This document shows, piece by piece, positions 1 through 57,256 of a DNA stretch of 64,000 nucleotides. Position numbers and translations under genes: made by a program. Each line of letters begins with the position of its first letter. Positions within the stretch are counted from its first letter, which is position 1. Under the pieces are notes generated by a model. The model was given only the letters and a program-made list of their open reading frames with translations. It was not told the origin of the DNA and ran no database searches. This DNA comes from Lineus longissimus (taxonomy: Eukaryota > Nemertea > Pilidiophora > Heteronemertea > Lineidae), in contig NC_088310.1 in assembly GCF_910592395.1 (NCBI RefSeq), positions 3,169,501-3,233,500 on the forward strand. Direction: 5' to 3'.

Positions 1-254
1 ATGACGGACCGGCGTACCTCTTTAACCATCCAGGCACCAGTTGTTTTCAGTATCCCCCGCCTCTCGATATGACTAAGGAGTATAAAAAGCCTGAAACTCA
101 GGATACCCTTTGACTAATTCTGATTGGAAAAGTCACGGTCCGACCCTAATACATTTTTGCCCCAATGTAGCTTCCAAAATACGAAAAATTGACATATGTA
201 CATGGATGATTAGATATCAAGATAAGGAAGAAAAAAAGAGAAGAAGTCTGCAGC

Positions 255-326
255 AGATTCACCGGGATTCGAACCCGTGACCAGCCGATCCACAGTCAAA
301 CGCTCTCAGCGCTGAACCGTCAAGGC
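255..326 (-). pseudogene. tRNA-like sequence (His GTG-like), one per monomer
   Basis: On the minus strand the 72 nt can be arranged as a degenerate tRNA. The T arm contains GGTTCGAATCC, a perfect pol III B box. A D-arm-like GTTC/GAGC stem encloses AGCGCTGA. An anticodon loop CTGTGGA (anticodon GTG) sits on a stem with wobble pairs. The acceptor stem pairs at only about four of seven positions and there is no CCA end, so this is not a working tRNA gene. It is more like a tRNA-derived SINE head or tRNA relic. The same element starts at 1414, 2570, 3729, 4885, 6036, 7195, 8351, 9502, 10652, 11797 and 12948. The D-loop side varies slightly (CACTCTC or CGCTCTC). Confidence 0.6.
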
Positions 327-1096
327 TTTCATGCTGTAATGGAGATTTTATTCGCCTCTTATATGCGATATGCAAAAGAGCGCGCCGCAATTGTGACAAG
401 GTCGCGCAGGTGGCAGAGTGATGGTCCGAAATAGATCCAAGTTATCGTATATTTCGATAGTTGCACAGATTTTTCTCAACATATCGTATTCATATACCTC
501 AGTGATATAAAAGATTATGCCTGCAGTTGATTTAACGTTTTAATGGCCGTTTTTTTAAAGTTTTTAAAAATCGAGGTCAGCAGGGTCAGAGTCAATCTTT
601 CAATGGTTTTGAAAGACACTGGCAGGGTCATAGGAAATAGTTGTTGGCGCCGATGATGTCAGCAATATGGCGGAGTTCCGCCCCACCCGTGAGATTTGCT
701 CTCGTCACGTCATGAGCATATTGAACTGCTTGTGAACCGAGCTGAATATGTTGCGGCTACCTATCTCTCCATCATCCCCGACGATATGTGCCGGTGCCGG
801 TCGTGCGAGGTCGTTTCAATGAAAAAGACGCACGCCACTGCCGTACCGGTACCTGAGAAACCATGCCGTTTTAGGCAGATTTGTGATGATTGAAACAATA
901 AATCTACCTCATAGTTCATGTGTTCTCATATGACAAACCCAGTGGACACATAGCCTGAATTAACATGCTGCGATCGGGAAAACATGTACACGCACCAATT
1001 GTATACAGATAGCGCTCGAGCGTGTGACTGACTATTGGAGTCGATTGGCGTTAGAAGTAGGAACTAGATGTTATTGGACAAACAGTACGTCAATGA

Positions 1097-1233
1097 CCGG
1101 CGTACCTCTTTAACCATCCAGGCACCAGTTGTTTTCAGTATCCCCCGCCTCTCGATATGACGGACCGGCGTACCTCTTTAACCATCCAGGCACCAGTTGT
1201 TTTCAGTATCCCCCGCCTCTCGATATGACTAAG
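1097..1233. repeat. 68-bp tandem duplication inside the monomer
   Basis: The block CCGGCGTACCTCTTTAACCA... ending in CTCTCGATATGA occurs twice with a 68-bp period (starts 1097 and 1165). The same pair is found once per monomer throughout the array. Window position 1 falls inside the second copy of such a pair. Confidence 0.9.
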
Positions 1234-4200
1234 GAGTATAAAAAGCCTAAAGCTCAGGATACCCTTTGACTAATTCTGATTGGAAAAGTCACGGTCCGAC
1301 CCTAATACATTTTTGCCCCAATGTAGCTTCCAAAATACGAAAAATTGACAAAATATGTACATGGATGATTAGATATCAAGATAAGGAAGAAAAAAAGAGA
1401 AGAAATCTGCAGCAGATTCACCGGGATTCGAACCCGTGACCAGCCGATCCACAGTCAAACACTCTCAGCGCTGAACCGTCAAGGCTTTCATGCTGTAATG
1501 GAGATTTTATTCGCCTCTTATATGCGATATGCAAAAGAGCGCGCCGCAATTGTGACAAGGTCGCGCAGGTGGCAGAGTGATTGTCCGAAATAGATCCAAG
1601 TAATCGTATATTTCGATAGTTGCACAGATTTTTCTCAACATATCGTATCCATATACCTCAGTGATATAAAAGATTATGCCTGCAGTTGATTTAACGTTTT
1701 AATGGCCGTTTTTTTAAAGTTTTTAAAAATCGAGGTCAGCAGGGTCAGAGTCAATCTTTCAATGGTTTTGAAAGACACTGGCAGGGTCAAAAGAAATAGT
1801 TGTTGGCGCCGATGATGTCAGCAATATGGCGGAGTTCCGCCCCACCCGTGAGATTTGCTCTCGTCACGTCATGAGCATATTGAACTGCTTGTGAACCGAG
1901 CTGAATATGTTGCGGCTACCGCTCTCTCCATCATCCCCGACGATATGTGCCGGTGCCGGTCGTGCGAGGTCGTTTCAATGAAAAAGACGCACGCCACTGC
2001 CGTACCGGTACCTGAGAAACCATGCCGTTTTAGGCAGATTTGTGATGATTGAAACAATAAATCTACCTCATAGTTCATGTGTTCTCATATGACAAACCCA
2101 GTGGACACATAGCCTGAACTAACATGCTGCGATCGGGAAAACATGTACACGCACCAATTGTATACAGATAGCGCTCGAGCGTGTGACTGACTGTTGGAGT
2201 CGATTGGCGTTAGAAGTAGGAACTAGATGTTATTGGACCAACAGTACGTCAACGACCGGCGTACCTCTTTAACCATCCAGGCACCAGTTGTTTTCAGTAT
2301 CCCCCGCCTCTCGATATGACGGACCGGCGTACCTCTTTAACCATCCAGGCACCAGTTGTTTTCAGTATCCCCCGCCTCTCGATATGACTAAGGAGTATAA
2401 AAAGCCTGAAACTCAGGATACCCTTTGACTAATTCTGATTGGAAAAGTCACGGTCCGACCCTAATACATTTTTGCCCCAATGTAGCTTCCAAAATACGAA
2501 AAATTGACATATGTACATGGATGATTAGATATCAAGATAAGGAAGAAAAAAAGAGAAGAAGTCTGCAGCAGATTCACCGGGATTCGAACCCGTGACCAGC
2601 CGATCCACAGTCAAACGCTCTCAGCGCTGAACCGTCAAGGCTTTCATGCTGTAATGGAGATTTTATTCGCCTCTTATATGCGATATGCAAAAGAGCGCGC
2701 CGCAATTGTGACAAGGTCGCGCAGGTGGCAGAGTGATGGTCCGAAATAGATCCAAGTTATCGTATATTTCGATAGTTGCACAGATTTTTCTCAACATATC
2801 GTATTCATATACCTCAGTGATATAAAAGATTATGCCTGCAGTTGATTTAACGTTTTAATGGCCGTTTTTTTAAAGTTTTTAAAAATCGAGGTCAGCAGGG
2901 TCAGAGTCAATCTTTCAATGGTTTTGAAAGACACTGGCAGGGTCATAGGAAATAGTTGTTGGCGCCGATGATGTCAGCAATATGGCGGAGTTCCGCCCCA
3001 CCCGTGAGATTTGCTCTCGTCACGTCATGAGCATATTGAACTGCTTGTGAACCGAGCTGAATATGTTGCGGCTACCTATCTCTCCATCATCCCCGACGAT
3101 ATGTGCCGGTGCCGGTCGTGCGAGGTCGTTTCAATGAAAAAGACGCACGCCACTGCCGTACCGGTACCTGAGAAACCATGCCGTTTTAGGCAGATTTGTG
3201 ATGATTGAAACAATAAATCTACCTCATAGTTCATGTGTTCTCATATGACAAACCCAGTGGACACATAGCCTGAATTAACATGCTGCGATCGGGAAAACAT
3301 GTACACGCACCAATTGTATACAGATAGCGCTCGAGCGTGTGACTGACTATTGGAGTCGATTGGCGTTAGAAGTAGGAACTAGATGTTATTGGACAAACAG
3401 TACGTCAATGACCGGCGTACCTCTTTAACCATCCAGGCACCAGTTGTTTTCAGTATCCCCCGCCTCTCGATATGACGGACCGGCGTACCTCTTTAACCAT
3501 CCAGGCACCAGTTGTTTTCAGTATCCCCCGCCTCTCGATATGACTAAGGAGTATAAAAAGCCTAAAGCTCAGGATACCCTTTGACTAATTCTGATTGGAA
3601 AAGTCACGGTCCGACCCTAATACATTTTTGCCCCAATGTAGCTTCCAAAATACGAAAAATTGACAAAATATGTACATGGATGATTAGATATCAAGATAAG
3701 GAAGAAAAAAAGAGAAGAAATCTGCAGCAGATTCACCGGGATTCGAACCCGTGACCAGCCGATCCACAGTCAAACACTCTCAGCGCTGAACCGTCAAGGC
3801 TTTCATGCTGTAATGGAGATTTTATTCGCCTCTTATATGCGATATGCAAAAGAGCGCGCCGCAATTGTGACAAGGTCGCGCAGGTGGCAGAGTGATTGTC
3901 CGAAATAGATCCAAGTAATCGTATATTTCGATAGTTGCACAGATTTTTCTCAACATATCGTATCCATATACCTCAGTGATATAAAAGATTATGCCTGCAG
4001 TTGATTTAACGTTTTAATGGCCGTTTTTTTAAAGTTTTTAAAAATCGAGGTCAGCAGGGTCAGAGTCAATCTTTCAATGGTTTTGAAAGACACTGGCAGG
4101 GTCAAAAGAAATAGTTGTTGGCGCCGATGATGTCAGCAATATGGCGGAGTTCCGCCCCACCCGTGAGATTTGCTCTCGTCACGTCATGAGCATATTGAAC

Positions 4201-5334
4201 TGCTTGTGAACCGAGCTGAATATGTTGCGGCTACCGCTCTCTCCATCATCCCCGACGATATGTGCCGGTGCCGGTCGTGCGAGGTCGTTTCAATGAAAAA
4301 GACGCACGCCACTGCCGTACCGGTACCTGAGAAACCATGCCGTTTTAGGCAGATTTGTGATGATTGAAACAATAAATCTACCTCATAGTTCATGTGTTCT
4401 CATATGACAAACCCAGTGGACACATAGCCTGAACTAACATGCTGCGATCGGGAAAACATGTACACGCACCAATTGTATACAGATAGCGCTCGAGCGTGTG
4501 ACTGACTGTTGGAGTCGATTGGCGTTAGAAGTAGGAACTAGATGTTATTGGACCAACAGTACGTCAACGACCGGCGTACCTCTTTAACCATCCAGGCACC
4601 AGTTGTTTTCAGTATCCCCCGCCTCTCGATATGACGGACCGGCGTACCTCTTTAACCATCCAGGCACCAGTTGTTTTCAGTATCCCCCGCCTCTCGATAT
4701 GACTAAGGAGTATAAAAAGCCTGAAACTCAGGATACCCTTTGACTAATTCTGATTGGAAAAGTCACGGTCCGACCCTAATACATTTTTGCCCCAATGTAG
4801 CTTCCAAAATACGAAAAATTGACATATGTACATGGATGATTAGATATCAAGATAAGGAAGAAAAAAAGAGAAGAAGTCTGCAGCAGATTCACCGGGATTC
4901 GAACCCGTGACCAGCCGATCCACAGTCAAACGCTCTCAGCGCTGAACCGTCAAGGCTTTCATGCTGTAATGGAGATTTTATTCGCCTCTTATATGCGATA
5001 TGCAAAAGAGCGCGCCGCAATTGTGACAAGGTCGCGCAGGTGGCAGAGTGATGGTCCGAAATAGATCCAAGTTATCGTATATTTCGATAGTTGCACAGAT
5101 TTTTCTCAACATATCGTATTCATATACCTCAGTGATATAAAAGATTATGCCTGCAGTTGATTTAACGTTTTAATGGCCGTTTTTTTAAAGTTTTTAAAAA
5201 TCGAGGTCAGCAGGGTCAGAGTCAATCTTTCAATGGTTTTGAAAGACACTGGCAGGGTCAAAAGAAATAGTTGTTGGCGCCGATGATGTCAGCAATATGG
5301 CGGAGTTCCGCCCCACCCGTGAGATTTGCTCTCG

Positions 5335-8300
5335 TCACGTCATGAGCATATTGAACTGCTTGTGAACCGAGCTTAATATGTTGCGGCTACCGCTCTCTCC
5401 ATCATCCCCGACGATGTCGTGCGAGGTCGTTTCAATGAAAAAAACGCACGCCACTGCCGTACCGGTACCTGAGAAAACATGCGCATGCCGTTTTAGGCAG
5501 ATTTGTGATGATTGAAACAATAAATCTACCTCATAGTTCATGTGTTCTCATATGACAAACCCAGTGGACACATAGCCTGAACTAACATGCTGCGATCGGG
5601 AAAACATGTACACGCACCAATTGTATACAGATAGCGCTCGAGCGTGTGACTGACTATTGGAGTCGATTGGCGTTAGAAGTAGGAACTAGATGTTATTGGA
5701 CAAACAGTACGTCAACGACCGGTGTACCTCTTTAACCATCCAGGCACCAGTTGTTTTCAGTATCCCCCGCCTCTCGATATGACGGACCGGCGTACCTCTT
5801 TAACCATCCAGGCACCAGTTGTTAGTTTCAGTGTCCCCCGCCTCTCGATATGACTAAGGAGTATAAAAAGCCTGAAACTCAGGATACCCTTTGACTAATT
5901 CTGATTGGAAAAGTCACGGTCCGACCCTAATACATTTTTGCCCCAATGTAGCTTCCAAAATACGAAAAATTGACATATGTACATGGATGATTAGATATCA
6001 AGATAAGGAAGAAAAAAAGAGAAGAAGTCTGCAGCAGATTCACCGGGATTCGAACCCGTGACCAGCCGATCCACAGTCAAACGCTCTCAGCGCTGGACCG
6101 TCAAGGCTTTCATGCTTTTATGGAGATTTTATTCGCCTCTTATATGCGATATGCAAAAGAGCGCGCCGCAATTGTGACAAGGTCGCGCAGGTGGCAGAGT
6201 GATTGTCCGAAATAGATCCAAGTAATCGTATATTTCGATAGTTGCACAGATTTTTCTCAACATATCGTATCCATATACCTCAGTGATATAAAAGATTATG
6301 CCTGCAGTTGATTTAACGTTTTAATGGCCGTTTTTTTAAAGTATTTAAAAATCGAGGTCAGCAGGGTCAGAGTCAATCTTTCAATGGTTTTGAAAGACAC
6401 TGGCAGGGTCAAAAGAAATAGTTGTTGGCGCCGATGATGTCAGCAATATGGCGGAGTTCCGCCCCACCCGTGAGATTTGCTCTCGTCACGTCATGAGCAT
6501 ATTGAACTGCTTGTGAATCGAGCTGAATATGTTGCGGCTACCGCTCTCTCCATCATCCCCGACGATATGTACCGGTGCCGGTCGTGCGAGGTCGTTTCAA
6601 TGAAAAAGACGCACGCCACTGCCGTACCGGTACCTGAGAAACCATGCCGTTTTAGGCAGATTTGTGATGATTGAAACAATAAATCTACCTCATAGTTCAT
6701 GTGTTCTCATATGACAAACCCAGTGGACACATAGCCTGAATTAACATGCTGCGATCGGGAAAACATGTACACGCACCAATTGTATACAGATAGCGCTCGA
6801 GCGTGTGACTGACTATTGGAGTCGATTGGCGTTAGAAGTAGGAACTAGATGTTATTGGACCAACAGTACGTCAATGACCGGCGTACCTCTTTAACCATCC
6901 AGGCACCAGTTGTTTTCAGTATCCCCCGCCTCTCGATATGACGGACCGGCGTACCTCTTTAACCATCCAGGCACCAGTTGTTTTCAGTATCCCCCGCCTC
7001 TCGATATGACTAAGGAGTATAAAAAGCCTAAAGCTCAGGATACCCTTTGACTAATTCTGATTGGAAAAGTCACGGTCCGACCCTAATACATTTTTGCCCC
7101 AATGTAGCTTCCAAAATACGAAAAATTGACATAATATGTACATGGATGATTAGATATCAAGATAAGGAAGAAAAAAAGAGAAGAAGTCTGCAGCAGATTC
7201 ACCGGGATTCGAACCCGTGACCAGCCGATCCACAGTCAAACGCTCTCAGCGCTGAACCGTCAAGGCTTTCATGCTGTAATGGAGATTTTATTCGCCTCTT
7301 ATATGCGATATGCAAAAGAGCGCGCCGCAATTGTGACAAGGTCGCGCAGGTGGCAGAGTGATTGTCCGAAATAGATCCAAGTAATCGTATATTTCGATAG
7401 TTGCACAGATTTTTCTCAACATATCGTATCCATATACCTCAGTGATATAAAAGATTATGCCTGCAGTTGATTTAACGTTTTAATGGCCGTTTTTTAAAAG
7501 TTTTTAAAAATCGAGGTCAGCAGGGTCAGAGTCAATCTTTCAATGGTTTTGAAAGACACTGGCAGGGTCAAAAGAAATAGTTGTTGGCGCCGATGATGTC
7601 AGCAATATGGCGGAGTTCCGCCCCACCCGTGAGATTTGCTCTCGTCACGTCATGAGCATATTGAACTGCTTGTGAACCGAGCTTAATATGTTGCGGCTAC
7701 CGCTCTCTCCATCATCCCCGACGATATGTACCGGTGCCGGTCGTGCGAGGTCGTTTCAATGAAAAAGACGCACGCCACTGCCGTACCGGTACCTGAGAAA
7801 CCATGCCGTTTTAGGCAGATTTGTGATGATTGAAACAATAAATCTACCTCATAGTTCATGTGTTCTCATATGACAAACCCAGTGGACACATAGCCTGAAC
7901 TAACATGCTGCGATCGGGAAAACATGTACACGCACCAATTGTATACAGATAGCGCTCGAGCGTGTGACTGACTATTGGAGTCGATTGGCGTTAGAAGTAG
8001 GAACTAGATGTTATTGGACCAACAGTACGTCAACGACCGGCCTACCTCTTTAACCATCCAGGCACCAGTTGTTTTCAGTATCCCCCGCCTCTCGATATGA
8101 CGGACCGGCGTACCTCTTTAACCATCCAGGCACCAGTTGTTTTCAGTATCCCCCGCCTCTCGATATGACTAAGGAGTATAAAAAGCCTAAAGCTCAGGAT
8201 ACCCTTTGACTAATTCTGATTGGAAAAGTCACGGTCCGACCCTAATACATTTTTGCCCCAATGTAGCTTCCAAAATACGAAAAATTGACATATGTACATG

Positions 8301-11300
8301 GATGATTAGATATCAAGATAAGGAAGAAAAAAAGAGAAGAAGTCTGCAGCAGATTCACCGGGATTCGAACCCGTGACCAGCCGATCCACAGTCAAACACT
8401 CTCAGCGCTGAACCGTCAAGGCTTTCATGCTGTAATGGAGATTTTATTCGCCTCTTATATGCGATATGCAAAAGAGCGCGCCGCAATTGTGACAAGGTCG
8501 CGCAGGTGGCAGAGTGATTGTCCGAAATAGATCCAAGTAATCGTATATTTCGATAGTTGCACAGATTTTTCTCAACATATCGTATCCATATACCTCAGTG
8601 ATATAAAAGATTATGCCTGCAGTTGATTTAACGTTTTAATGGCCGTTTTTTTAAAGTTTTTAAAAATCGAGGTCAGCAGGGTCAGAGTCAATCTTTCAAT
8701 GGTTTTGAAAGACACTGGCAGGGTCAAAAGAAATAGTTGTTGGCGCCGATGATGTCAGCAATATGTCGGAGTTCCGCCCCACCCGTGAGATTTGCTCTCG
8801 TCACGTCATGAGCATATTGAACTGCTTGTGAACCGAGCTTAATATGTTGCGGCTACCGCTCTCTCCATCATCCCCGACGATGTCGTGCGAGGTCGTTTCA
8901 ATGAAAAAAACGCACGCCACTGCCGTACCGGTACCTGAGAAAACATGCGCATGCCGTTTTAGGCAGATTTGTGATGATTGAAACAATAAATCTACCTCAT
9001 AGTTCATGTGTTCTCATATGACAAACCCAGTGGACACATAGCCTGAACTAACATGCTGCGATCGGGAAAACATGTACACGCACCAATTGTATACAGATAG
9101 CGCTCGAGCGTGTGACTGACTATTGGAGTCGATTGGCGTTAGAAGTGGGAACTAGATGTTATTGGACCAACAGTACGTCAACGACCGGTGTACCTCTTTA
9201 ACCATCCAGGCACCAGTTGTTTTCAGTATACCCCGCCTCTCGATATGACGGACCGGCGTACCTCTTTAACCATCCAGGCACCAGTTGTTAGTTTCAGTGT
9301 CCCCCGCCTCTCGATATGACTAAGGAGTATAAAAAGCCTGAAACTCAGGATACCCTTTGACTAATTCTGATTGGAAAAGTCACGGTCCGACCCTAATACA
9401 TTTTTGCCCCAATGCAGCTTCCAAAATACGAAAAATTGACATATGTACATGGATGATTAGATATCAAGATAAGGAAGAAAAAAAGAGAAGAAGTCTGCAG
9501 CAGATTCACCGGGATTCGAACCCGTGACCAGCCGATCCACAGTCAAACGCTCTCAGCGCTGAACCGTCAAGGCTTTCATGCTGTAATGGAGATTTTATTC
9601 GCCTCTTATATGCGATATGCAAAAGAGCGCGCCGCAATTGTGACAAGGTCGCGCAGGTGGCAGAGTGATTGTCCGAAATAGATCCAAGTAATCGTAGATT
9701 TCGATAGTTGCACAGATTTTTCTCAACATATCGTATCCATATACCTCAGTGATATAAAAGATTATGCCTGCAGTTGATTTAACGTTTTAATGGCCGTTTT
9801 TTTAAAGTTTTTAAAAATCGAGGTCAGCAGGGTCAGAGTCAATCTTTCAATGGTTTTGAAACACACTGGCAGGGTCAAAAGAAATAGTTGTTGGCGCCGA
9901 TGATGTCAGCAATATGGCGGAGTTCCGCCCCACCCGTGAGATTTGCTCTCGTCACGTCATGAGCATATTGAACTGCTTGTGAATCGAGCTGAATATGTTG
10001 CGGCTACCGCTCTCTCCATCATCCCCGACGATATGTACCGGTGCCGGTCGTGCGAGGTCGTTTCAATGAAAAAGACGCACGCCACTGCCGTACCGGTACC
10101 TGAGAAACCATGCCGTTTTAGGCAGATTTGTGATGATTGAAACAATAAATCTACCTCATAGTTCATGTGTTCTCATATGACAAACCCAGAGGACACATAG
10201 CCTGTGCTGAGATCGGGAAAACATGTACACGCACCAATTGTATACAGATAGCGCTCGAGCGTGTGACTGACTATTGGAGTCGATTGGCGTTAGAAGTAGG
10301 AACTAGATGTTATTGGACCAACAGTACGTCAACGACCGGCGTACCTCTTTAACCATCCAGGCACCAGTTGTTTTCAGTATCCCCCGCCTCTCGATATGAC
10401 GGACCGGCGTACCTCTTTAACCATCCAGGCACCAGTTGTTTTCAGTATCCCCCGCCTCTCGATATGACTAAGGAGTATAAAAAGCCTAATGCTCAGGATA
10501 CCCTTTGACTAATTCTGATTGGAAAAGTCACGGTCCGACCCTAATACATTTTTGCCCCAATGTAGCTTCCAAAATACGAAAAATTGACATATATGTACAT
10601 GGATGATTAGATATCAAGATAAGGAAGAAAAAAAGAGAAGAAGTCTGCAGCAGATTCACCGGGATTCGAACCCGTGACCAGCCGATCCACAGTCAAACGC
10701 TCTCAGCGCTGGACCGTCAAGGCTTTCATGCTTTTATGGAGATTTTATTCGCCTCTTATATGCGATATGCAAAAGAGCGCGCCGCAATTGTGACAAGGTC
10801 GCGCAGGTGGCAGAGTGATGGTCCGAAATAGATCCAAGTAATCGTATATTTCGATAGTTGCACAGATTTTTCTCAACATATCGTATCCATATATCTCAGT
10901 GATATAAAAGATTATGCCTGCAGTTGATTTAACGTTTTAATGGCCGTTTTTTTAAAGTTTTTAAAAATCGAGGTCAGCAGGGTCAGAGTCAATCTTATGG
11001 TTTTGAAAGACACTGGCAGGGTCAAAAGAAATAGTTGTTGGTGCCGATGATGTCAGCAATATGGCGGAGTTCCGCCCCACCCGTAAGATTTGCTCTCGTC
11101 ACGTCATGAGCATATTGAACTGCTTGTGAACCGAGCTGAATATGTGCGGCTACCGCTCTCTCCATCATCCCCGACGATGTCGTGCGAGGTCGTTTCAATG
11201 AAAAAAACGCCGCCACTGCCGTACCGGTACCTGAGAAAACATGCGCATGCCGTTTTAGGCAGATTTGTGATGATTGAAACAATAAATCTACCTCATAGTT

Positions 11301-12461
11301 CATGTGTTCTCATATGACAAACCCAGTGGACACATAGCCTGAACTAACATGCTGCGATCGGGAAAACATGTACACGCACCAATTGTATACAGATAGCGCT
11401 CGAGCGTGTGACTGACTATTGGAGTCGATTGGCGTTAGAAGTAGGAACTAGATGTTATTGGACCAACAGTACGTCAACGACCGGTGTATACCTCTTTAAC
11501 CATCCAGGCACCAGTTGTTTTCAGTATTCCCCGCCTCTCGATATGACGGACCGGCGTACCTCTTTAACCATCCAGGCACCAGTAGTTTTCAGTGTCCCCC
11601 GCCTCTCGATATGACTAAGGAGTATAAAAAGCCTGAAACTCAGGATACCCTTTGACTAATTCTGATTGGAAAAGTCACGGTCCGACCCTAATACATTTTT
11701 GCCCCAATGTAGCTTCCAAAATACGAAAAATTGACATATGTACATGGATGATCAGATATCAAGATAAGGAAGAAAAAAAGAGAAGAAGTCTGCAGCAGAT
11801 TCACCGGGATTCGAACCCGTGACCAGCCGATCCACAGTCAAACGCTCTCAGCGCTGGACCGTCAAGGCTTTCATGCTGTAATGGAGATTTTATTCGCCTC
11901 TTATATGCGATATGCAAAAGAGCGCGCCGCAATTGTGACAAGGTCGCGCAGGTGGCAGAGTGATTGTCCGAAATAGATCCAAGTAATCGTATATTTCGAT
12001 AGTTGCACAGATTTTTCTCAACATATCGTATCCATATACCTCAGTGATATAAAAGATTATGCCTGCAGTTGATTTAACGTTTTAATGGCCGTTTTTTTAA
12101 AGTTTTTAAAAATCGAGGTCAGCAGGGTCAGAGTCAATCTTTCAATGGTTTTGAAACACACTGGCAGGGTCAAAAGAAATAGTTGTTGGCGCCGATGATG
12201 TCAGCAATATGGCGGAGTTCCGCCCCACCCGTGAGATTTGCTCTCGTCACGTCATGAGCATATTGAACTGCTTGTGAATCGAGCTGAATATGTTGCGGCT
12301 ACCGCTCTCTCCATCATCCCCGACGATATGTACCGGTGCCGGTCGTGCGAGGTCGTTTCAATGAAAAAGACGCACGCCACTGCCGTACCGGTACCTGAGA
12401 AACCATGCCGTTTCAGGCAGATTTGTGATGATTGAAACAATAAATCTACCTCATAGTTCAT
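5335..12461. repeat. Higher-order trimer and dimer duplications in the array
   Basis: Diagnostic variants repeat at longer spacing. The monomer lacking the GGTGCCG block occurs at 5335-5541 and again at 8801-9007, 3,466 bp apart (three monomers). The ATGTACCGG variant at 6477 recurs at 9943, also 3,466 bp. The variant with CCAGAGGACACATAGCCTGTG at about 10185 recurs at about 12480, 2,295 bp apart (two monomers). The array therefore grew by several block duplications of different size. Confidence 0.8.
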
Positions 12462-13490
12462 GTGTTCTCATATGACAAACCCAGAGGACACATAGCCTGT
12501 GCTGAGATCGGGAAAACATGTACACGCACCAATTGTATACAGATAGCGCTCGAGCGTGTGACTGACTATTGGAGTCGATTGGCGTTAGAAGTAGGAACTA
12601 GATGTTATTGGACCAACAGTACGTCAATGACCGGCGTACCTCTTTAACCATCCAGGCACCAGTTGTTTTCAGTATCCCCCGCCTCTCGATATGACGGACC
12701 GGCGTACCTCTTTAACCATCCAGGCACCAGTTGTTTTCAGTATCCCCCGCCTCTCGATATGACTAAGGAGTATAAAAAGCCTAAAGCTCAGGATACCCTT
12801 TGACTAATTCTGATTGGAAAAGTCACGGTCCGACCCTAATACATTTTTGCCCCAATGTAGCTTCCAAAATACGAAAAATTGACATAATATGTACATGGAT
12901 GATTAGATATCAAGATAAGGAAGAAAAAAAGAGAAGAAGTCTGCAGCAGATTCACCGGGATTCGAACCCGTGACCAGCCGATCCACAGTCAAACGCTCTC
13001 AGCGCTGAACCGTCAAGGCTTTCATGCTGTAATGGAGATTTTATTCGCCTCTTATATGCGATATGCAAAAGAGCGCGCCGCAATTGTGACAAGGTCGCGC
13101 AGGTGGCAGAGTGATTGTCCGAAATAGATCCAAGTAATCGTATATTTCGATAGTTGCACAGATTTTTCTCAACATATCGTATCCATATACCTCAGTGATA
13201 TAAAAGATTATGCCTGCAGTTGATTTAACGTTTTAATGGCCGTTTTTTAAAAGTTTTTAAAAATCGAGGTCAGCAGGGTCAGAGTCAATCTTTCAATGGT
13301 TTTGAAAGACACTGGCAGGGTCAAAAGAAATAGTTGTTGGCGCCGATGATGTCAGCAATATGGCGGAGTTCCGCCCCACCCGTGAGATTTGCTCTCGTCA
13401 CGTCATGAGCATATTGAACTGCTTGTGAACCGAGCTGAATATGTTGCGGCTACCGCTCTCTCCATCATCCCCGACGATATGTGCCGGTGG

Positions 13491-14999: not shown

Positions 15000-17900
15000 A
15001 TGTGCGTCATCATGGTGGGCCACACTTTGTCGTCAGCATCCCGGACTGGAAAGCACCATTTGTCATATCTTTACATAATTCTTTCCTGGAGTGTTTTCTT
15101 TGGAGCAGTTATCATAAGGACTACATCTGGACAATTGGTGCCTGCGAGTAGTGTAAAAAGAAACTTCCCCGTGCCTTTCAATGTTGCAAAATTAAAACCA
15201 TTGACCACAACACCGGGTCAGAGTACATGCGGAATACCGTCACGGAGTACATTCTGTCAAAGTACGACATCAGAGTCTTCTATCACTCAGTGTACGCTTA
15301 CTAACTGTATACAAGAATGCCCGCAACGGACTACCCTCCCCTCCCAGCAAGAACTTTTAAAGGAGGTGACGTCAGATTGTATCAGTAAGGAAAGTGTTAA
15401 TATTCGTCCTGGGAGTTTGATCGGATCGTACTCGCTGGCATTTACTGGGAAGACGGGATGTTTTCTTACTCCGCCGCAGAATGTAATTCTTGGAAGTAAC
15501 GGAGCGTTAACTTTTACTGCATGGATTTGGAGAGCTGAGAAAAACAATGGGTAAGATCATGTTTTAATGTCATCATCATCATCTATCATCATCATCACAT
15601 CATCGTTGCATTCTGACTCGATGCATTTTAAAACAAAATCTATTCATCATTTGTCACAGCTTTTTTATCAGAGAAGCTGTGAAAAACAACATCTCGTGGC
15701 AAACTCTCTCATTTCCCCTGAGATAAACACGCAATTTCAGGTGTAAAAAACGGTGACCGTTCCTGCTTGGTGTTCCCTTTTGGGTGGAGTCATATGAATT
15801 TTTAAACCTAGATGTGCACCAAATGTTGTAACTACATGAACAATATGTAATATTATGGATTTTTGCAAGGTGAACGCAAGTGCTTCATTAGATTTACGTT
15901 TTAAAACCGACTTGGGCGTTCGTCCCATTGTTGGGGGTACATAATAGTCACTGGGTTTGCATGGTCTTCAAAATATCAGCTCCACCCATTCTGATGAACA
16001 TGATGAGGGTGACCCGTTAGCCAATTAACTGGAATGCTAACTAATGCATTTATGAATGTAATTACATGTATGCTAGCTCACCCTTATAAAATATTTACCC
16101 TGTCGTGCCTGATGCAATAAGCATGCTAAAGGTATTACACATTATATGGTTGGTGAAAATACATGCAAATTTCAGTGCATTGGCTGATTTGGACACGCCT
16201 AATTTTGCTGGACTAAGTACTAAAAAAAAAGTCACCCCCTGTTATACTTAGCCCAGTGTTTCAAATTGCTACCAGAGGTCTTGTTGATTATCTCTGATGG
16301 CGCCACTGGCTAAACTTACAGCTTACAGACAAAGCTATTGAGGCAATACCGCTGGAAGTTCAGTATGGCTTCATGAGGAAGATGGGTCAGTTCCTACCCA
16401 TTTGCCTCAATTTTGGTGAATTTCGTTGATGTTGGGTCAGCTCTGACCAACTTTATCAAAACGTATTGAGGCCTGCTATACCACGACTGACCTATGGTCA
16501 TGTAAACATTCACTGTATACTTGATGTGACCAGTAGACTTTTAAAAGTTAGCATTCATTGGATAGTAAACAAAACTTGCCAAGTACATAGAACAACAATT
16601 CAAAAGGTTGAATAGAACCATAAAAAGAATGTGTGGCCTTTACAATATAGTCAAGTCAGTGCTCATTGTTACAAATCATAGTCTTGAAGGATTAGCTTTG
16701 ACTGTAAATGCCGAAATTGTCTGTCTGCTAATCTATACCACTTTTCATTACTAGGAATAAAAAACTCCTAAAACCATCTCTATGAGTCCATTTTTGTGTT
16801 TCACATGTTAATGCAGCGGATACGTTGTAAACCCTGTAATCGGTGATAAAAAATGACCATACTGTTCTACCATGGTGCCCAACTTCTCTGATGTTTATTA
16901 AAAAAAACTGCAACTCCTATGAGAATGATAATCTCTTCTAAACTGCAATCACGCTAGTCCAACCAGCCTTGATATTTTGAATGAAATCAACAGGGGAACC
17001 ATTCATCACAAGAAATGCATTTGCCTCTGATTATTGTCGACCATATGACTCTGATTTGAATGGTTGCCATGGGCACAAGGAAGCCATTCGAGGAAGCATT
17101 CTCATGTTTAAGTATTAAGTTTTCAAGTGTCCGTGATCAATAATGTACGGTAAACTTGCTGGGAAGTGCATAGATCGTGATGACTAGCATGCTAATTGTA
17201 AATTTAAAGGTAATGTGGCCTGAGCAAAAATATTAGATCCATCCACTTTAATGACTTTAGCAAATCAACGCCTGCATCGAATAGCTAGCGGGGAAAAACC
17301 TAAAGCCATAATTGCTCTTGTCAATGTTGCCAGACACTTGTTTTCAATATAATGGCCCTGCATTCAACTCACCAAACATCTGTCCTGTGAACGATAAATT
17401 GACCATCATTTCAACTCAAAGAAACGATTCAAATTTAATTTTTTAATCGTATCCGTTTTTCCAGAACTCTCATAGAAAAAGCAAGTCTTGCTGGCGAGAC
17501 TATCTTCAAACTGATCGTCAGCAGGGATGTGGTAATCTTTACCTTCAAGTCAACAGCAAACAAGGTTGAAACTGTCTTCTTCCATACTATTATCCAACCA
17601 AAGACATGGACTCACTTGGCTGTGCAGGTAAGCCTGCGACTGAGATTCGTTTCTAAGGGGCTTTGAGAAGATGAATAGTTTTACCACAATTGAGAGAACC
17701 ATTCAAGACTCACATAACCTTGCTTATGCTCTCCCTTGGATATACTGTAAAATCCTTTCTATAAGGTCACACACCCAGGCGATGACTTTGGCATGCACAT
17801 GCAAATCATAGGCCTGCTGATCTGTGACCTCTTAGGCAGACGTTACATAGAGCTTCACGCTTCACTCCTCACGCCTCATGCTTCACGGTTCACTCGTGAA

Positions 17901-25400: not shown

Positions 25401-28400
25401 TGTCGCATATCAGTTGTCTGTGAGAATCTCAAGTTTTTCTATATTGGTATGTATTGTTTTTGCAGCTAGGGAAATGACAGACAAAGGTCTTACAGCTTAC
25501 ACAGAGTACAAGTACTTTGTTCAGGTTTGGAATATCCATGGAAACGCCACAAGTCAGACAACGATTGCAAGGACGCCCCCTGGGGTACCAGAAGGGAACC
25601 TTACTTTATCCGTATCAACGATGCGGAAACGTTCTGCAACGTTGTCGTGGGCGCCGCCGAAGAAATCAAACGGACCAATCAAAGAGTACATTTTGTCGTC
25701 GACAACTGCGAGTGATTCGAAGCCAACTGAGCACTGGAAGGGGAGCGAGACTACAACAACAGTGCAGTTTCTCGTTCCGTTCACAAACTACACATTCTCG
25801 CTCAAGGCATGCACCACGGGTGGTTGTCTGACGAGCGAGGCCGTCACGGGTCAAACCAAGATGGACGCTCCTGAGAAACAGGCTGTGCCGAAGATCACAG
25901 CTTTGTCTGAGGTGTCTTTGTATGTGGGATGGGAGCCCCCGGCTCTTCCCAACGGTGAGTAACATCAACTTGGAGAATAATGCTTGATTTGAAATTCGTA
26001 GTCATGATATGTGAAGTTGACGAGTTAGACAAGATGAAGCTGTTAGAATAGCGTGTTCCAGTCTATGTCTGTCCACCTTTATCACAAGATGTTGATGATG
26101 AGTAAGTGATTTGTGGTTCAGTCACGGATATTCATGTACACCTTCATGTATAGGATATACCTGATGTTTCAGGCATCATCATCATGTATGAACTGTGGAT
26201 GAGAGGACTCAAAGACCAGACAGGAAAATACGATCCGCCGGAAAAGAGAATCTTCAACCCAACTGGTCAATACAACCCCCGCTCAACAGCTGCTCCAGAG
26301 AAAAATGCCTTGGCACCACCGGCAACCAACTTTACTGTTGATAACTTGAGGGCATTCACGGTCTACCAGTTCCAAGTTACAGCCAAGAATGAGGTTGGTC
26401 AGACAGTCAGTGACTGGACCAATGGGACGACGAAAGAAGCAGGTATGTTGCTTGTGCTCTTGTTTACTTTTTCTTCCTGTTCTGTCCTTTCACGAATGCA
26501 GTTGTGTGTATCACCTGAGCCCCAATGACAATGACTTTGAATTTAACAGAGAAATACATGTAGCTGGAATGAATTCAGGTTTAGTCAACAGCCTTGGACT
26601 TGACTGGTGAGTGAATAGGAGGATTGTGCGTGAAAGCTTGACTTGGCAAGTAATGGCTTATCATGACCGCGACCAGTGATATTAGCTCTGCCATAAAAAT
26701 CACCAGCCCGTGGCTGGCAAACAGCAGAATATCTGTTTGATTTATAACATTGTGAATGTAAAACCATTGTCCTTTCAGTGCCACTTTCAATGCCAACACC
26801 TGTGATTCTTGGAGTCAACAGCGCCACGCTGAATGTGACTTGGAAAGCGGCCTCCCAAGATGAGGCGAGGGGCGTGATTGCCCAATACCGGGTGTGGCAG
26901 TACAAGGCGACCAATAGGACTCTCTTTCCCTTCATACCAATCATTGAAGAGGTAAGCTTTCATTAGGAACAAGCATTTCTTCCATCATCAATTCCTCTAG
27001 ATTTCTTTTAACCACTGAACTGGACTCCAGACTATCAAAAGCAGTGTAGGTCTTCCAGAGCGAATTGATTAGAAAACCAAGGACATGCAGCATGGTATCA
27101 ATTTCTATCATGAAAGGGCTCAATGTGAACATTTGCTATCAAATCAAAACTTTAAAGCTACGTCTATCGTCATCAGAATCTTATGACTATTCCATTTTGT
27201 TTTCAGAACGTGTACACTGCCCAGGGGAATGAGACATTCTATGTTGTGAATGGTTTCCTGCCTTACACTGACCACAAGTTCAAGATCGAAGCATGCAATA
27301 CCGCAGGCTGTGTGAACAGCACTGATGCTATTGGGAAAACACTTGCTGCAGGTATGGTTACAGTTTCTGTTAAGAAATTGATTGCGGCAAATATCAACCG
27401 CGCAATTCCAAATATTTTTTGATCACTTACTTCATTATAATTTCCTTCTAATATTTCAGCACCATCTGAGATGCAGCCGCCAACTGTGGAAGGTTTCAAT
27501 TCCACTGTAATGGAAATAAAATGGCAGCCTCCCCTGAAAGCAAACGGTCCGCCCCCGCACTACCTCGTGGAGAGAACGACCGTCGCATTGAACTCCCCAC
27601 CCCCAAAGGTGATCAGGGGGACGAGGTTCACCGGTGCGGGATTCTATAAATTTCCTGCCAAGACGATCCCGTATGATGTGGGATTCACCGGGATTGATTT
27701 CTGGTTTAAGACGCGGCAAAAGGACGGACTGATTCTGTTCAGCGCATCCGAAGGGCGGCAGGAGGAGATGATAGCTGTTCAGATGAGGGGAGGTCGGCCT
27801 TTCTTCATATTCAACCCACAAGGTAAGGCACCGTCATGATTATGAATGGACTTTGCTTTAAAGGACTCAAAGACCAGAATCACTGTGGGCAATTGTACAC
27901 TTGTTGTATAACAGGAAAGGTTGTTTGAGGGGGTTAAGTTCTAATCTGCCAGGAAACTGGCTTCCCTATTATGGTTGGTTTTATAAATGCACGAGGGACC
28001 CCTTCATCACAGATTAACATTGTCAATGGGCTTATCGTTTTCGACTTTGTTTGATCACTTCTGTAGATTCACATTTTGTCCCAGTCACTTTTACTTAGGT
28101 CACAATATCTAAATCACAACGTGTATTTGTGAAGACAATGATTTGGAAACATTTTGAGTTCATTTAGACATTTTTCTCAAATACCTTTACATATATGTAT
28201 TACTTTTGAAAAGTATGAGAATATGACTGAGAGGTTGAGACGAAAATTTATATTTCTTAAATCAGTTGGTTTTATCGAACCCTTCTCGTTTTGTTGACTT
28301 CACTTCCTCTTTTGTTCGGCACTTGTTGTATAGGTTGCGCCACTGCCGTAGAACCAGATCCAAGCAAGGACGGTAACCGCTCTTACGGTGACAACACGTG

Positions 28401-31400
28401 GCATCGCTTCGTTGCTAGGCGGACCGAGAAGTCGGGAGAAGTTACTGTGGATGACACGTATAGAGGTCAGAGTTCACAACCATCAAGCTTGTGGCATGTG
28501 GGTTGCAGAGAAGTAGATGCTAGGTTTCAATTTACGACAAACAGGTCCTGAATTTAACACATTTTTCAGTCTGGGCGGAGAGAACATCAGCAAGCTTGGA
28601 TATCATCCTCCGTACATCTCTAGTTGGATGTTCTATCTAGGTATATAGGCTTTTTCTTGCCAGTAAGAACCAGCCCAATAACATTTCGTCATTGCACGTG
28701 CATTGCAATCAAATTTGCTGGTTAATGCCTCTTTGAAATAGGATGTTAGAAATAGAAGCCTGGCATATACACCTCTACAATGCCTCTGTCAATCTGTTCA
28801 TGAAATAGCTTGGTGTGGCGTGATGTGATGGTTTGGTGTGGCTGCTATAGTTCCTACTGTTAGCAATGCATGGAGGTGTTGAGGGGAAGACAAGTTTGGG
28901 ACTTAGACATTTTTGCAGAACTCTTTTCTTCCAGCTGGAAACGCAATAGTTTATTTCTTCTCGATGTTGATGGTATGCTTTAATGTACAATTTTGTTCTT
29001 CAAATAATGCATTCTGCATTGGATGCTGTTTGTGTCCCAAACTTGCAAACTCTCAACACTCTTTCTTAAAATGCTTGACTTCCTAAACTTGACTAACCCA
29101 TTTCGTAAACTCCCAGGATGCATGACCTTCGTACAAACAACTGACGATGAAGGTATGCCATACGCCGATAACCGCTGGCACAATTTGATTATAAAACGTT
29201 CTGGAACGTATGCTATGGTTATGGTAGATGGCTTTAAAGGTAGGCCAGATATGGTCTCGATGTTGTCCGAGTCCTGCGCACACTCTGAACAACCTGATAG
29301 TTCTCATTAAAGGTCTACACATAAGCATGCCATGCCGCGTACAAGGCCTAACTAGTTGACTTGTTCATGCTGCGTGGTGTGAAATGCTTATGTGGAGATA
29401 GCCTTGATGATAATCCAGAAGTTTAGGTACTGTCCTTATCCTTACCCATCTTTATCGAGTGTTTCTTGTTGTCCAACTACCCTTCCAATATCACACCAAC
29501 CCCCAGCTTTATATCCATAATCCTAATCCCAACTGTCACTAGTGTTTGTCTTAATGTTAAAACCCTAATCCCTGTATCCAATGTTTGTGATTGTCTTATT
29601 GGCCCCAAATGCCCTAAATCACCTGAAGTCCATGAAGCTATAGAAAACTGTGTCTACAGCATTTCCAGCTCTTTGTTATGCATGTGTTTTACAGCACATT
29701 TTCAGCATTTTGGCTTTCAGCCACTCCCATGTCTGAATTTCCCTTGTTCCCATCCTGCATGAACTTAAATCCTCCATTCCCTAACCCTGCATGCACCCAG
29801 GATGCTTAACATTCGTCCAAGTCACAGATGATGAAGGTACCAAGTATGATGACAATTCTTGGCACCAAATTGAAATACGACGAACTGGAACTGTTGCTGT
29901 TATACGAAGTGATGGGTGGTACGGAGGTAACAGAATACTGAGACAGATTTCTTCAGTGTCTTTCAGTAGTAACTAGTTGATGTTGCATGTATCACAACAA
30001 CTTTTGAGCACTGAGTGTTTCATGCTTAACACAACTGTGGAGCTTTGTGCAGTTACTGAATATTGGAATCTTAGTAACACCTTCAAATCATTCCACTATT
30101 TGTAGAATCATTGGCTTGTAATGATCTTGGTGCATATCTTCAGTCTGAATTTTGAAAGTCTGACATTGTTGAATTTTCGTTCTCCAGGGACTAAGAACAG
30201 TACATGTGCCAAGGGCAGCATGATAGGTATCAGCACTGGCATCTACCTCGGAGGTGTACCCAACGATTTTGAAATCCATCAGGCCCAGCAGAACTCGAGG
30301 CTTCAAGTAAGATACTTAAAATTGCCAAATGTTATTTTTGCCAATTTGTAGAAATAGTAACACTATGGTGATCATTTTTGTCCCTTCAATTTTTGTTTTG
30401 AGAACAGTCACGCAAAATGTTTTGAAAAAATTCACAAGAAAAATGTCAAATTTCACAGTTTATGGTATCTTACCTCTCATAAATCTGTTTCCAGGTTTTG
30501 AACACTGCCTTCCAAGGCTGTTTGAGAGATGTCAAGTTCCTTCAGCAAGTCAGCCCCGCGGATGTTTGGAAGGATCTAGATTTTGCGACCGCTGAAGTTA
30601 ATGAGCAGGTGCTTCCGAGCTGGGAGGGATGTCCGATCGATCTTCCCAAAGGCGATCATTTCTTAGGGAAGGGTAAGTAGCTTTCACCGAAAGTCATTTT
30701 CACATGGGCAACATGCTCAGACAAATGATCTTGTGGTTGCTGTGAAGACAAAGTTCCCAATCCTGGTCATATGTTGATCCTTTTATGATGGATGTTGTTT
30801 CTTTTTTGGTTAGGATACGCTGGTTTCAACTCCACAGTGCTACAGTCCGAGGAGACCTATGCAATCCAGATGACAATTCGCACAGAATTCAAAACTGGTC
30901 TGTTGCTTTTCGCTCACGGAGCTGTCGGGCACTACACTTACGCCCAGTTAAAGGATGGAAATATAGAGTATGGCGTCCATACACCCACGCTCAAGAGGAC
31001 CGTCACATACCCCAGCAGCATTGTATCAATCTGTGACGGAGGATGGAGGACCATCAAACTGGACAAACAGCAGGAGAAGTTATCAATTCAGGTCAGTAAT
31101 AGTTTCCTAACTTCTCAGATTTGAATCTTTATTCTTCAATGTTGTAGACCATGTGTACTTGGTTGGCGTTTCAGTTCCCTGTGACAAACACCAGGTACAC
31201 TCGTTTGAACAGTACTCTCACAACCTTAATGAACGATGGAGGCCCTCCCTATCTGACATTATATCAGAAAACTAATCATTCAATACGCGTGTTTGATTAG
31301 AATCAGTGGGTGCCATTTCACCTGATAGATGGCAGTTGGAGCGTGTTGGGCAGACTATAAGAACCATAGAAGAGACGATTACAGGAACTATGAACAGTCA

Positions 31401-52840: not shown

Positions 52841-53539
52841 GATGCCGTCGGAAAGTCGAAAATGTCCTTCTAAATTGTCATTTCTGGAGGGAAAAGCCGT
52901 TTCCAACCAGAACTTTCAATCAATCGACAGATAATGCGGCAGTATTGACACTTTAACTAGTAAGTATACATAAGCACGCATATTAGATTATCATCCGGGA
53001 TTGATGCCTCACTCTAATCCCAGAACACAGAGAGATGGACTTCAAAATGCTTTTCAGATTATCTTGATCAAGCAACTTAACTTCACTGAATTTCATCTTG
53101 CTTCCAGACCACACCATTCAGACCATGTCAAGCAGAAAACTGACATTACAGATTTATCAGGCCAATCATAATTGTCTTCGGTGTGCGCTTTCCCGATTTG
53201 TTGTCCAGACGTTCCATCCATATCCGGTGTCTCCTCCATCCAGTTTGTGCATCTCCTGGTTTTGGCAGTCGCATCTAGCCATGGAGGCACGGACCGATCT
53301 AGTATGATAAACAGATCCGAAAGAAGAAACGCTTGAAGTAACCCTTTCCTTTCTTTGGTAACTTTTCCAGTCGAGGAGGACAAATGATTGAAGACATGGT
53401 ATCGTCGGCATCATTCATATCATCCTCGTCATCTGACTAAAGTGATCATGGTTTTTTTAACCGCGCCTTTAACTACCAATGACTTCGTCTCCTTAACTTT
53501 TCAGTCTGATCTAGTCCAATTAACGCATCAACTGACGCC
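52841..53539. other. Region upstream of the tetraspanin gene
   Basis: No coding frame recognised; it presumably includes the promoter and 5'UTR. The frames on both strands at 53093-53414 overlap one another and show no family signature. Confidence 0.5.
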
Positions 53540-56500
53540 ATGCCTTCGTGTGTTGTTAATTTCACCGAAAAAGGGCGATACAACTTGGGTTTGACTTTAT
53601 CTGTCCTCCACTCCTTCATGTCGCTCTTTGGTCTCGGACTCATAGCGGCAGCGGTCTACATCAAGGTTGAGATGGACAGCCGGACGGTCCTCCTGGACAA
53701 ATATACGACAGACCCCGTACCCTACATGCTCATATCTTTAGGAATCCTCTTGATCCTATTTCACGGAGTGGCTGTAATAATGTGTTACAATTGTGCCAAA
53801 CTGAAGACAAGGGACCGTTTCCAAGGTGCGCTCCTGGCCCTCATGGTTGGTTTTTTAGTCTTCGTCTGGGTTGTCCTCAGTGGCGGCATTATGTGTTTCA
53901 CGCACCAAGACTATATGAAATCTGCGTTTACTGGAGGTATTCTAAAGAGCATGAAGAAGTACGGCGTCAAAAAGGATACCAAACTTCTGTTGGACAACCT
54001 GCAGATGTCCTACAAATGTTGCGGGAGTAGGAACCTCACGGACTGGTTCAAAGTTGACTGGATCGATCAGAGATACGTGGACCGCCGGGTCGATTTGATC
54101 ATCGGGTGAGTTGTGAAGATGCATGTTGGTTGTGCCATTGGGATTATTTCAAAATTCATAAATGCATGCTTAGTCTTGCCTTCACCCTCCAACGAGTGAA
54201 TGACTTAACGGGGAAGGACACATCGGCATCATAGATCAACAAGGTCATTATGGTCGCTTTAGAAGAACCATATACCATAATCCGTCACAATACAAAATAC
54301 CCGAACAATTTTTCCATGAGGACGTTTTCGTCCGCTCTAGGGTTGTAATTTGTCTTCGACGATGTTCGCAGCTTCTTCTTCAGCAAGGCACATCTTATTT
54401 CGGCCGGTCTGTAAGCAGTTGTATTCTTTGAAATAGAAGTCCGCATACATCTTTCAATACGAGCATCGTGTTAAGTTATGGTACACTTTACACATTCAAA
54501 AATTTTGCTTACCATAATGTTTTTTTGACCAGACCAATTTCGCCTCGGGTGTACAAAGACCACGTCCCATTCAGTTGCTGCGACCCAGCCTCAATGCAAC
54601 CATGTGTCCATACCTTCGTCAACCACACGATGTTCTACAGGAACTACAAGGAGCACACCCTCTACAAGAAAGGATGCGTCAAGGCGCTGATGGACTACTT
54701 CGAGCTAATCTTGGTCCCCGCAGGACGGGTTGTCCTCTCCTTATTTGGTGCCGAGGTGAGTAACGTATCATAATCGGGAAATTGAGAATAGTGTCATGAT
54801 ACGCACACACAGCGTCACATCCTTCTTTAAACTCAGGGAACATTGAGATTGTTGGCAGGACGAATCTGTCAGCCCAAAGACAGCGTCACATCCACCTTGT
54901 TTCATGGAGAATATTGTCAGGACGAATCTGACAGCGTCACATCCATCTTGAAACATGGAGAACATTGTCCGGAGACACTGTCACAATTTAATTAACCAAG
55001 GCTTTCAGTCTCAGGTGCCACAGTCAGTCCAAGTTAGCACTGTCACAACCAAGCCTGTCATACCAGGCGACACTGTCACATCTAAACCATTTCCTCTTTG
55101 TTTCAGTGGTTCATACTTTTACTGATGAAATACTTCTACACGTCAATGCGTAATGCAAGTCTCTGGGGTAACCCAGCCATGCGTGCCCCAGGGTGGCTCA
55201 TTGAGACATGCTGCTGCCTCTGCTGTGACCCAGACATGGGGCGCCCATACAAACCTCCTCCTGAAGCTTACCAAGACACCCCAAACCAGAATCTATCGCC
55301 ACACTACCCCCAACCTGCAGAACCTCCACCAACAATGGATTACAGTAAGTGTTGAAATTTTGAGGACGATCTTGAGAAAATCCTTCACTTCGATTGTCTC
55401 TTCCTCAGAATGAGATGAAATACCAAGTATGTTTACGTGAAAGATGGGAGATACTCTGAGAGGTTGCTTCCGATTTCACAGGGGATGTACCTTGGTCAAC
55501 CATATGCAACTCTAACAGCTATAATTTTCTTTAAGATGAAATGCAAGAATATACGGAAGCAGGATACGATTACCAAGATACCGAGCCTTATTATGAAAAC
55601 GAAGGGTGGGGCGAGGATGAGTTCATCGATTATGGGAATGATTATGACAACAATATGGACCAACAAGGTTACTGGGGATACCAAGATGAGGAGGGGTACA
55701 ATGACTACCAGGAGGAACCAATCTATCAAAACATCGATCACCTCCGACAAATGATGCCCCAGAATCAGACAATGGACTATGGTGGATATTCAGACGGTTA
55801 TCATCAAATGGCTGACCACTCAGCCGGGATGCATCCCTCATACCCCACTGCAGAACCCTATACGCAGCAAGCCATGTCTCCACAGTTTCCTACCCAGCAA
55901 GGTTTGTCATCTCATGGCCATCCTCAGTATTCACCACAGAGTTATCCACAAACTCAGTCACCATACCAAACTAGTCCGCATCAAGCACAACATCCGCATC
56001 AAGCACAACATGAGATGCCTTCGCCCCATGCGCACCCTCACGGTTCTCCTTTGGGCCACCATGCCAGTCCAGGGACACCTCATCATCCAACTGGTCACCC
56101 ACAGACAAGGCAAGAACATTCACCGGGCATGCACGATGGACATTCTGCTCAAAGACGTAGGATGTCAAATTTGGGCCAAAGTCATCAAGATGTTCATTGG
56201 GAGCCGGGTGATCATGATGTGCGCAGGGATTTGTTTGGAGCCAAACATGGTGGCAAGAAAAAAGATGGGCCACACACACCTAAATCTGATATGGATGTTG
56301 GTAGCGCAAAGAAAAGTAAGTCGAAAAAAAAGAAGTTTTTAGGGTTATCGAAGGGGAAGAAAACTGCTGGAGAAGATGACAATACTTCGCCTAAAAAAGG
56401 ATCACCAAAATCTAAGAAAGGAACACCCAAATCACCTCAAAAGGGTACACCAAAATCACCCAAAAAGGGTACACCCAAGTCACCTCAAAAGGCTACACCA

Positions 56501-57256
56501 AAAACACCTCAAAAGGGTACATCGAAATTGTCACCGCAGAGTAACAAAACTCCTGGGAGAAGCAAATCACCAAAAGGCGCCATGGGTAGCTCGCCCAGAA
56601 AGAAATTGTTTGGATCGCCAGGAAAAGGAATTGGGTCGCCAGAAAAGAAAAGTCCTGGGAGAAGCAAATCACCAAAAGGCGCCATGGGTAGCTCGCCCAG
56701 AAAGAAATTGTTTGGATCGCCAGGAAAAGGAATTGGGTCGTCAGAAAAGAAAAGTCCTGGGAGAAGCAAATCACCAAAAGGCGCCATGGGTAGCTCGCCC
56801 AGAAAGAAATTGTTTGGATCGCCAGGAAAAGGAATTGAGTCGTCAAAAAAGAAAAGTCCTGGGAGAGGCAAATCACCAAAAGGCGCCGTGGGTAGCTCGC
56901 CCAGAAAGAAATTGTTTGGATCGCCAGGAAAAGGAATTGGGTCGTCAAAAAAGAAAAGTCCTGGGAGAGGCAAATCACCAAAAGGCACCATGGGTAGCTC
57001 GCCCAGAAAGAAATTGTTTGGATCGCCAGGGAAAGGAATTGGGTCGTCAAAAAAGAAAAGTCACAAGGGTTTTTCATTTAAGAGAAATAAATCTTCTTCA
57101 CCGAAGAGAAGCAAGTTACCTGGGTTAAAGAAACCAAAATTCTTCAAGAAATCGCCAAAGTTTCCAAAAGCCCCGAAGGTTGGAAAATCAAAGTTTGGAA
57201 AATCAAAGTTTGGAAAATCAAAGTTTGGAAAATCGAAGAAGAACAAATTGAAGTGA
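53540..57256 (+). CDS. Peripherin/ROM1-family tetraspanin with long basic repeat tail
   Basis: Exons are 53540-54105, 54533-54755, 55107-55344 and 55536-57256, giving 915 aa in consistent phase. Four membrane helices lie at about 17-41, 62-83, 97-119 and 245-272. The large loop has YKCCGSRNLTDWFKVDWIDQRY (human PRPH2: [22 protein letters not shown]), then FSCCDP, QPC and KKGC. The intron after the loop's first half matches the PRPH2 exon 1/2 boundary. PRPH2 and ROM1 shape photoreceptor disc rims in vertebrates. Exon 3 adds a CCCLCC cluster and a Pro-rich stretch. Exon 4 adds about 570 aa: an acidic Tyr-rich segment, a His/Pro/Gln segment, then Lys/Ser/Pro repeats ending in KFGKSK repeats. Orthology to PRPH2 rather than a sister clade is not established. 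Confidence 0.88.
54793..55085. repeat. Degenerate minisatellite in tetraspanin intron 2
   Basis: Repeated words GACAGCGTCACATCC, ATGGAGAA(T/C)ATTGTC and AGGACGAATCTG recur at about 55-75 bp spacing, then decay to GACACTGTCACA near the acceptor at 55106. Intronic. Confidence 0.8.
56551..57060 (+). repeat. Five tandem 102-bp coding repeats (34 aa each)
   Basis: The unit begins at 56551, 56653, 56755, 56857 and 56959. Each encodes KSPGRSKSPKGAMGSS then PRKKLFGSPGKGIGSS with only a few substitutions (S to G, A to V or T). The copies are nearly identical at synonymous sites too, which implies recent expansion or ongoing gene conversion. SPKK, SPRKK and KSP words resemble histone H1 and neurofilament-type tails. 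Upstream, 56400-56530 holds shorter GTPKSPQK repeats. Confidence 0.95.

Follow-up and report, generated by a model that had tools for sequence, protein, structure and literature searches.

Mutually exclusive exons that arose by tandem duplication have been described for muscle myosin heavy chain (PMC3912159) and for sets of human genes (PMC5740500 and PMC9741552). In the parts of these papers drawn on here, the alternatives are neighbouring paralogues of like length and the same phase that encode the same part of a fold, and old clusters are common to phyla and lost in branches; the three exons of the usherin gene of Lineus longissimus described below resemble them in all these respects. They differ in gene and domain, and the published sets are proven by transcripts, whereas the Lineus cluster is known from sequence alone. 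In their main texts, PMC5740500 and PMC9741552 contain neither USH2A nor laminin as a word, and a limited search of the literature found no title on mutually exclusive exons in usherin or on spiralian usherin splicing.

A further point of comparison is offered by the neurexins. By profile, the nearest solved chain to usherin LamG1–LamG2 is neurexin-1alpha, with which it aligns over LNS2–LNS3 (3r05_A, E = 1.4e-53). Between the neurexin chains 3r05 and 3qcw, LNS4 shows a 9-residue difference just ahead of the D-N-x-W-H motif; we take this difference to be neurexin splice site 3, and it falls where the two segment types of spiralian usherin, called A and B here, also vary in length. Neurexin splice sites of this kind tune ligand choice; neurexins insert or omit short cassettes, whereas usherin would exchange a whole homologous segment. 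We consider it likely that spiralian usherin carries an ancient alternative A/B exon cluster, used one version per transcript, of which the B exon was doubled in the Lineus lineage.

The window, i.e. the whole 64,000-nucleotide stretch of Lineus longissimus DNA that was analysed, carries the usherin gene of this nemertean. From start codon to last coding exon, the gene occupies 15000–49437 of the plus strand, residues 1 and 5268 of the NCBI protein P0001 (usherin-like, Lineus longissimus, 5268 amino acids) falling at 15000 and 49437, respectively. The spliced plus-strand model agrees with P0001 except at the N terminus, a few internal exon ends, the C terminus and exons 20b and 20c. By its Pfam domains the protein has the layout of an usherin: a laminin-type N-terminal part is followed by FN3 repeats, a pair of LamG domains, further FN3 repeats and a C-terminal tail. 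In the portions of PMC10258241 and PMC7317166 used here, the domains of human usherin (USH2A) follow one another in this order too, the LamG pair coming after four FN3 domains. Upstream of the gene, positions 1–13489 hold a tandem array with a unit length of about 1.16 kb, in which eleven copies are complete or almost so and a twelfth is partial. The copies are 97–100% identical to the unit at 1982, each has a 67-nt direct repeat, and the array stops about 1.5 kb upstream of the usherin start codon. Downstream of usherin and on the same strand, an open stretch at 53510–54103 matches Pfam Tetraspanin (48.8 bits, E = 9e-13). A 572-codon open stretch at 55535–57250, whose start is rich in acidic residues and in Tyr and Gln, gave no Pfam match at E = 0.001, and an Rfam search of the window gave no match.

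All exons discussed here lie on the plus strand and keep the numbering of an earlier note on this DNA. Exon 19 (27460–27822) encodes the end of an FN3 domain and the first part of LamG1, exon 21 (30188–30306) the following part of LamG1, and exon 22 (30495–30672) its end. Between exons 19 and 21 lie exon 20a (28334–28465, 132 nt), which is the version present in P0001, exon 20b (29117–29239, 123 nt) and exon 20c (29801–29926, 126 nt). The earlier note had described these three as intact, paralogous exons in phase 1 to phase 1 with a shared D-N-x-W-H core, and each of these points was confirmed: the borders are exact, with AG before and GT after each exon, all three are open, a join of exon 19 to any one of them and on through exons 21–25 is open, and the core is found in 20a, 20b and 20c alike. 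Paralogy was established by pairwise matches, independently of the segment profile described below, with 57% identity over 42 amino acids between 20b and 20c (E = 2.4e-15), 36% between 20a and 20c (E = 1.9e-5) and 35% between 20a and 20b (E = 9.4e-5). Exons 20a to 20c are thus similar neighbouring internal exons in the same frame, of similar length and without in-frame stop, as is required of a mutually exclusive exon cluster in PMC5740500; that paper further calls for splice-junction reads that link every member to both outer neighbours, and for none that link two members.

A segment profile was built from 33 rows and used to scan the window, translated in six frames, as 2,755 open stretches. 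The three exons were recovered at E = 1.1e-19 to 2.6e-19 and are themselves among the profile rows, so the scan speaks to the absence of further copies; a fourth copy of exon 20 was not found in the window, the next best match being at E = 0.043. Nor were there convincing intronic copies of other modelled exons, the best (E = 0.025) being a 21-residue EGF-like stretch.

The usherin sample comprised 136 fetched proteins, based on the best 120 of 192 first-search matches, from which 9 other LamG proteins were set aside; its models represent clusters at 90% identity, a procedure that hides isoforms. In this sample the idea that the three Lineus exons are equivalent versions was not borne out, as 20a is of type A and 20b and 20c are both of type B (B and B′). 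Besides 20b and 20c, 16 spiralian usherin models are present among the matches listed, eight of each type, and the two types are mixed in bivalves, gastropods and annelids. Type A is represented by Lineus 20a, Haliotis, Gigantopelta, Babylonia, Batillaria, Saccostrea, Mizuhopecten and Owenia, and type B by Lineus 20b and 20c, Lottia, Biomphalaria, Plakobranchus, Mercenaria, Mya, Ylistrum, Pinctada and Dimorphilus. As read from the alignment, a D-E-G motif is present in 10/10 B rows and 0/8 A rows; A rows carry E (7/8) or D (1/8) five or six residues past the opening Cys or its neighbour. The W-H place is preceded by 22 to 26 residues in type A and by 20 in eight of the ten B rows (22 in Biomphalaria and Plakobranchus). 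Mean segment identity is 35% for A–A, 44% for B–B and 31% for A–B pairs.

Because the types had been named after the alignment was seen, they were tested with profiles from which the tested genus was left out. All 18 spiralian segments were assigned to their own type. With Lineus left out of training, 20a scored 63.0 bits with the A profile and 36.8 with the B profile, 20b scored 61.2 bits with B and 35.7 with A, and 20c scored 46.9 bits with B and 35.7 with A, giving own-type margins of about 26 bits for 20a and 20b and 11 bits for 20c. Among the matches listed, types A and B occur in spiralians only, and the segment of the 111 other models is of a third, D type. Exon 20 begins with a Cys in 17 of the 18 spiralian rows (the exception is Lottia) and in 0/15 of the others. 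Another Cys lies early in exon 21 in 18/18 spiralian rows (exon 21 being common to the three from Lineus) and again in 0/15 others; these two residues may form a disulphide. A protein search for shorter relatives found no further spiralian usherin.

Splice sites were scored with generic consensus weights of our own, omitting six model exons with doubtful borders. Counted from the weakest, the acceptors of 20a, 20b and 20c rank 6th, 4th and 3rd of 56, and their donors 6th, 29th and 8th of 55, so the weak splice sites proposed in the earlier note are seen in all three acceptors and in the donors of 20a and 20c, the donor of 20b being average. The flanking sites are strong (exon 19 donor, 5.11; exon 21 acceptor, 4.59). 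An internal donor-like AAG/GTA site, the use of which would keep the frame, lies 36 nt into 20b (29152) and 20c (29836), scoring 3.12 in 20b (real donor, 3.30) and 0.24 in 20c.

P0001, which is a single gene model rather than a transcript survey and the sole Lineus sequence in its cluster, joins exon 19 to 20a without 20b and 20c. Taken with the weak acceptors of the two omitted exons, this could mean that 20a is the sole working exon in Lineus, that 20b and 20c are skipped leftovers of an old duplication, and that elsewhere A or B has been lost. The acceptor of the A exon is just as weak, however, and the pattern of change between 20b and 20c is not that of dead exons, which at such an age should have lost their frame. 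Their silent sites are 80% different, i.e. saturated, yet 22/40 residues, the frame and the splice borders are kept, and pN was below pS in 1000/1000 bootstraps, indicating old divergence under protein-level constraint; both exons also fit the B profile of other genera at the scores given above. We regard an A-only gene as improbable; 20b and 20c would probably be spliced into mRNA.

Each arrangement was matched to Pfam Laminin_G_2 (cut-off, 22.9 bits). A single version gave a continuous match to profile positions 1–124 of 126, scoring 70.9 bits for 20a, 74.2 for 20b and 73.4 for 20c. The match was broken when no exon 20 was included (44.5 bits), and with two versions together half of the profile was matched twice, the summed score rising to 86.6 and 87.9 bits. 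With a count threshold of 22 bits and profiles trained on some of the counted rows, exactly one segment copy was found in 127/127 usherin or usherin-like models among the matches listed (8 A, 8 B and 111 other). The joins 19–21 and 19–20a–20b–20c–21 are both open, and since all exon lengths are multiples of 3, skipping and joint inclusion would keep the frame, as would suit versions that are alternative but not exclusive, with transcripts holding none or two made in quantity. We think this very improbable, given the one copy per model, the LamG domain that is broken with none and half repeated with two, and the second opening Cys that two copies would presumably bring without a second exon 21 Cys. 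That the three are alternative versions meant for single use, as put forward in the earlier note, is well supported by the continuous LamG of a single copy, by the count over the models and by types that are swapped in place, and strictly one-at-a-time splicing is what we infer; P0001, as a single gene model, does skip 20b and 20c, the pattern that the note had named as refuting its proposal.

Two trees were compared. In the segment tree (33 rows and 44 columns; 18 rows are spiralian and 15 were chosen from the 111 others), A (8 rows), B (10) and the others (15) each fall on one side of a branch, with support of 83/88, 88/94 and 93/74, respectively, and 20b groups with 20c (98/87). In the tree of the remaining LamG1 (31 rows), the two scallops are sisters (100/100) and the gastropods group together (99/97), while neither the bivalves nor the two annelids are resolved as a group; here the A/B label takes 6 changes over the 15 non-Lineus spiralian rows, and label A shows no more clustering than after shuffling (276/500 shuffles as low). 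The segment tree sorts by exon type; the tree of the remaining LamG1 does not. AU tests on the segment rejected the scallops as sisters (p = 0.015) and did not reject a single clade for the bivalves (p = 0.29) or for the three Lineus exons (p = 0.20). The scallop pair, Mizuhopecten (A) and Ylistrum (B), is identical at 4689/5198 places of usherin (90.2%) and at 100/101 and 98/100 places in the flanks of the segment, and at 17/42 places (40.5%) within it. Only 4 of 5161 42-residue windows are as low, all located at the segment. Such a pattern would be expected if each annotation had picked a different member of one A/B pair.

The AU result for the Lineus exons, together with the fast evolution of the segment that is evident from the A–A, B–B and A–B identities, would suit a duplication in the nemertean line alone, the A-like and B-like segments of other phyla having arisen by convergence or fast drift. 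This would require one motif pair, partitioned in the same way, to arise in nemerteans and again in bivalves, gastropods and annelids. Moreover, 20a and 20b match the profile of their own type, built from other genera, by the margins given above, and the scallop swap lies within otherwise near-identical proteins; we hold this reading very improbable. Two paralogous usherin genes behind A and B are ruled out by the Lineus exons within one gene and by scallop flanks that are 98–99% identical.

The reading that we favour is accordingly that of an ancient cluster. An A exon and a B exon, both coding for one and the same stretch of 40-odd residues in mid-LamG1, would have originated as tandem duplicates before the lineages of nemerteans, molluscs and annelids separated; in the Lineus lineage the B exon would later have doubled into 20b and 20c. 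Each transcript would take one version, so that LamG1 is complete in every case but differs in its loop-and-strand surface, and other species in which one type is annotated would probably hold both exons.

As regards how a version might be chosen, decay, spacing and U2/U12 incompatibility are described means of exon exclusion in the part of PMC6071210 drawn on here. None fits exon 20: frame shift with mRNA decay is ruled out by lengths that are all multiples of 3, the introns (511 nt for 19–20a, 651 for 20a–20b, 561 for 20b–20c and 261 for 20c–21) are not too short, and every border is GT–AG, which leaves RNA pairing or trans-acting factors. The docking-site/selector clusters of insect Dscam, as covered in that part of PMC6071210, likewise have more than two candidate exons, and there too lengths, introns and borders exclude the other means; unlike in Dscam, no competing pairing was detected at Lineus exon 20. 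A search over six arrangements, in a single genome with no conservation to lean on, found no docking/selector pairing signal above shuffles (6 to 20 of 23 shuffles as low). The likeliest means would be competition of the three weak acceptors between the strong upstream donor of exon 19 and the strong downstream acceptor of exon 21, with trans-acting factors or pairing of intronic RNA tipping the choice.

Nemerteans, molluscs and annelids split from one another more than 500 million years ago. Loss of usherin in people causes deafness and blindness. LamG1 of usherin shows a strong enrichment of missense changes that cause human disease, according to the portion of PMC7317166 consulted. Somewhat on balance, we favour the view that the A/B choice is a regulated switch of the usherin surface kept since the nemertean–mollusc–annelid ancestor, to which the doubling of B would have added a third state in the Lineus lineage. 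Such a switch would be hidden because the gene model of each species displays one version, and as the version displayed looks nearly arbitrary, cross-species comparison of usherin could mislead at this segment. If the reading is true, LamG1 holds a very old usherin exon switch, two naturally exchanged LamG1 surfaces would provide a handle on the binding partners of LamG1, and annotated mollusc, annelid and nemertean proteomes could conceal deep alternative exons.
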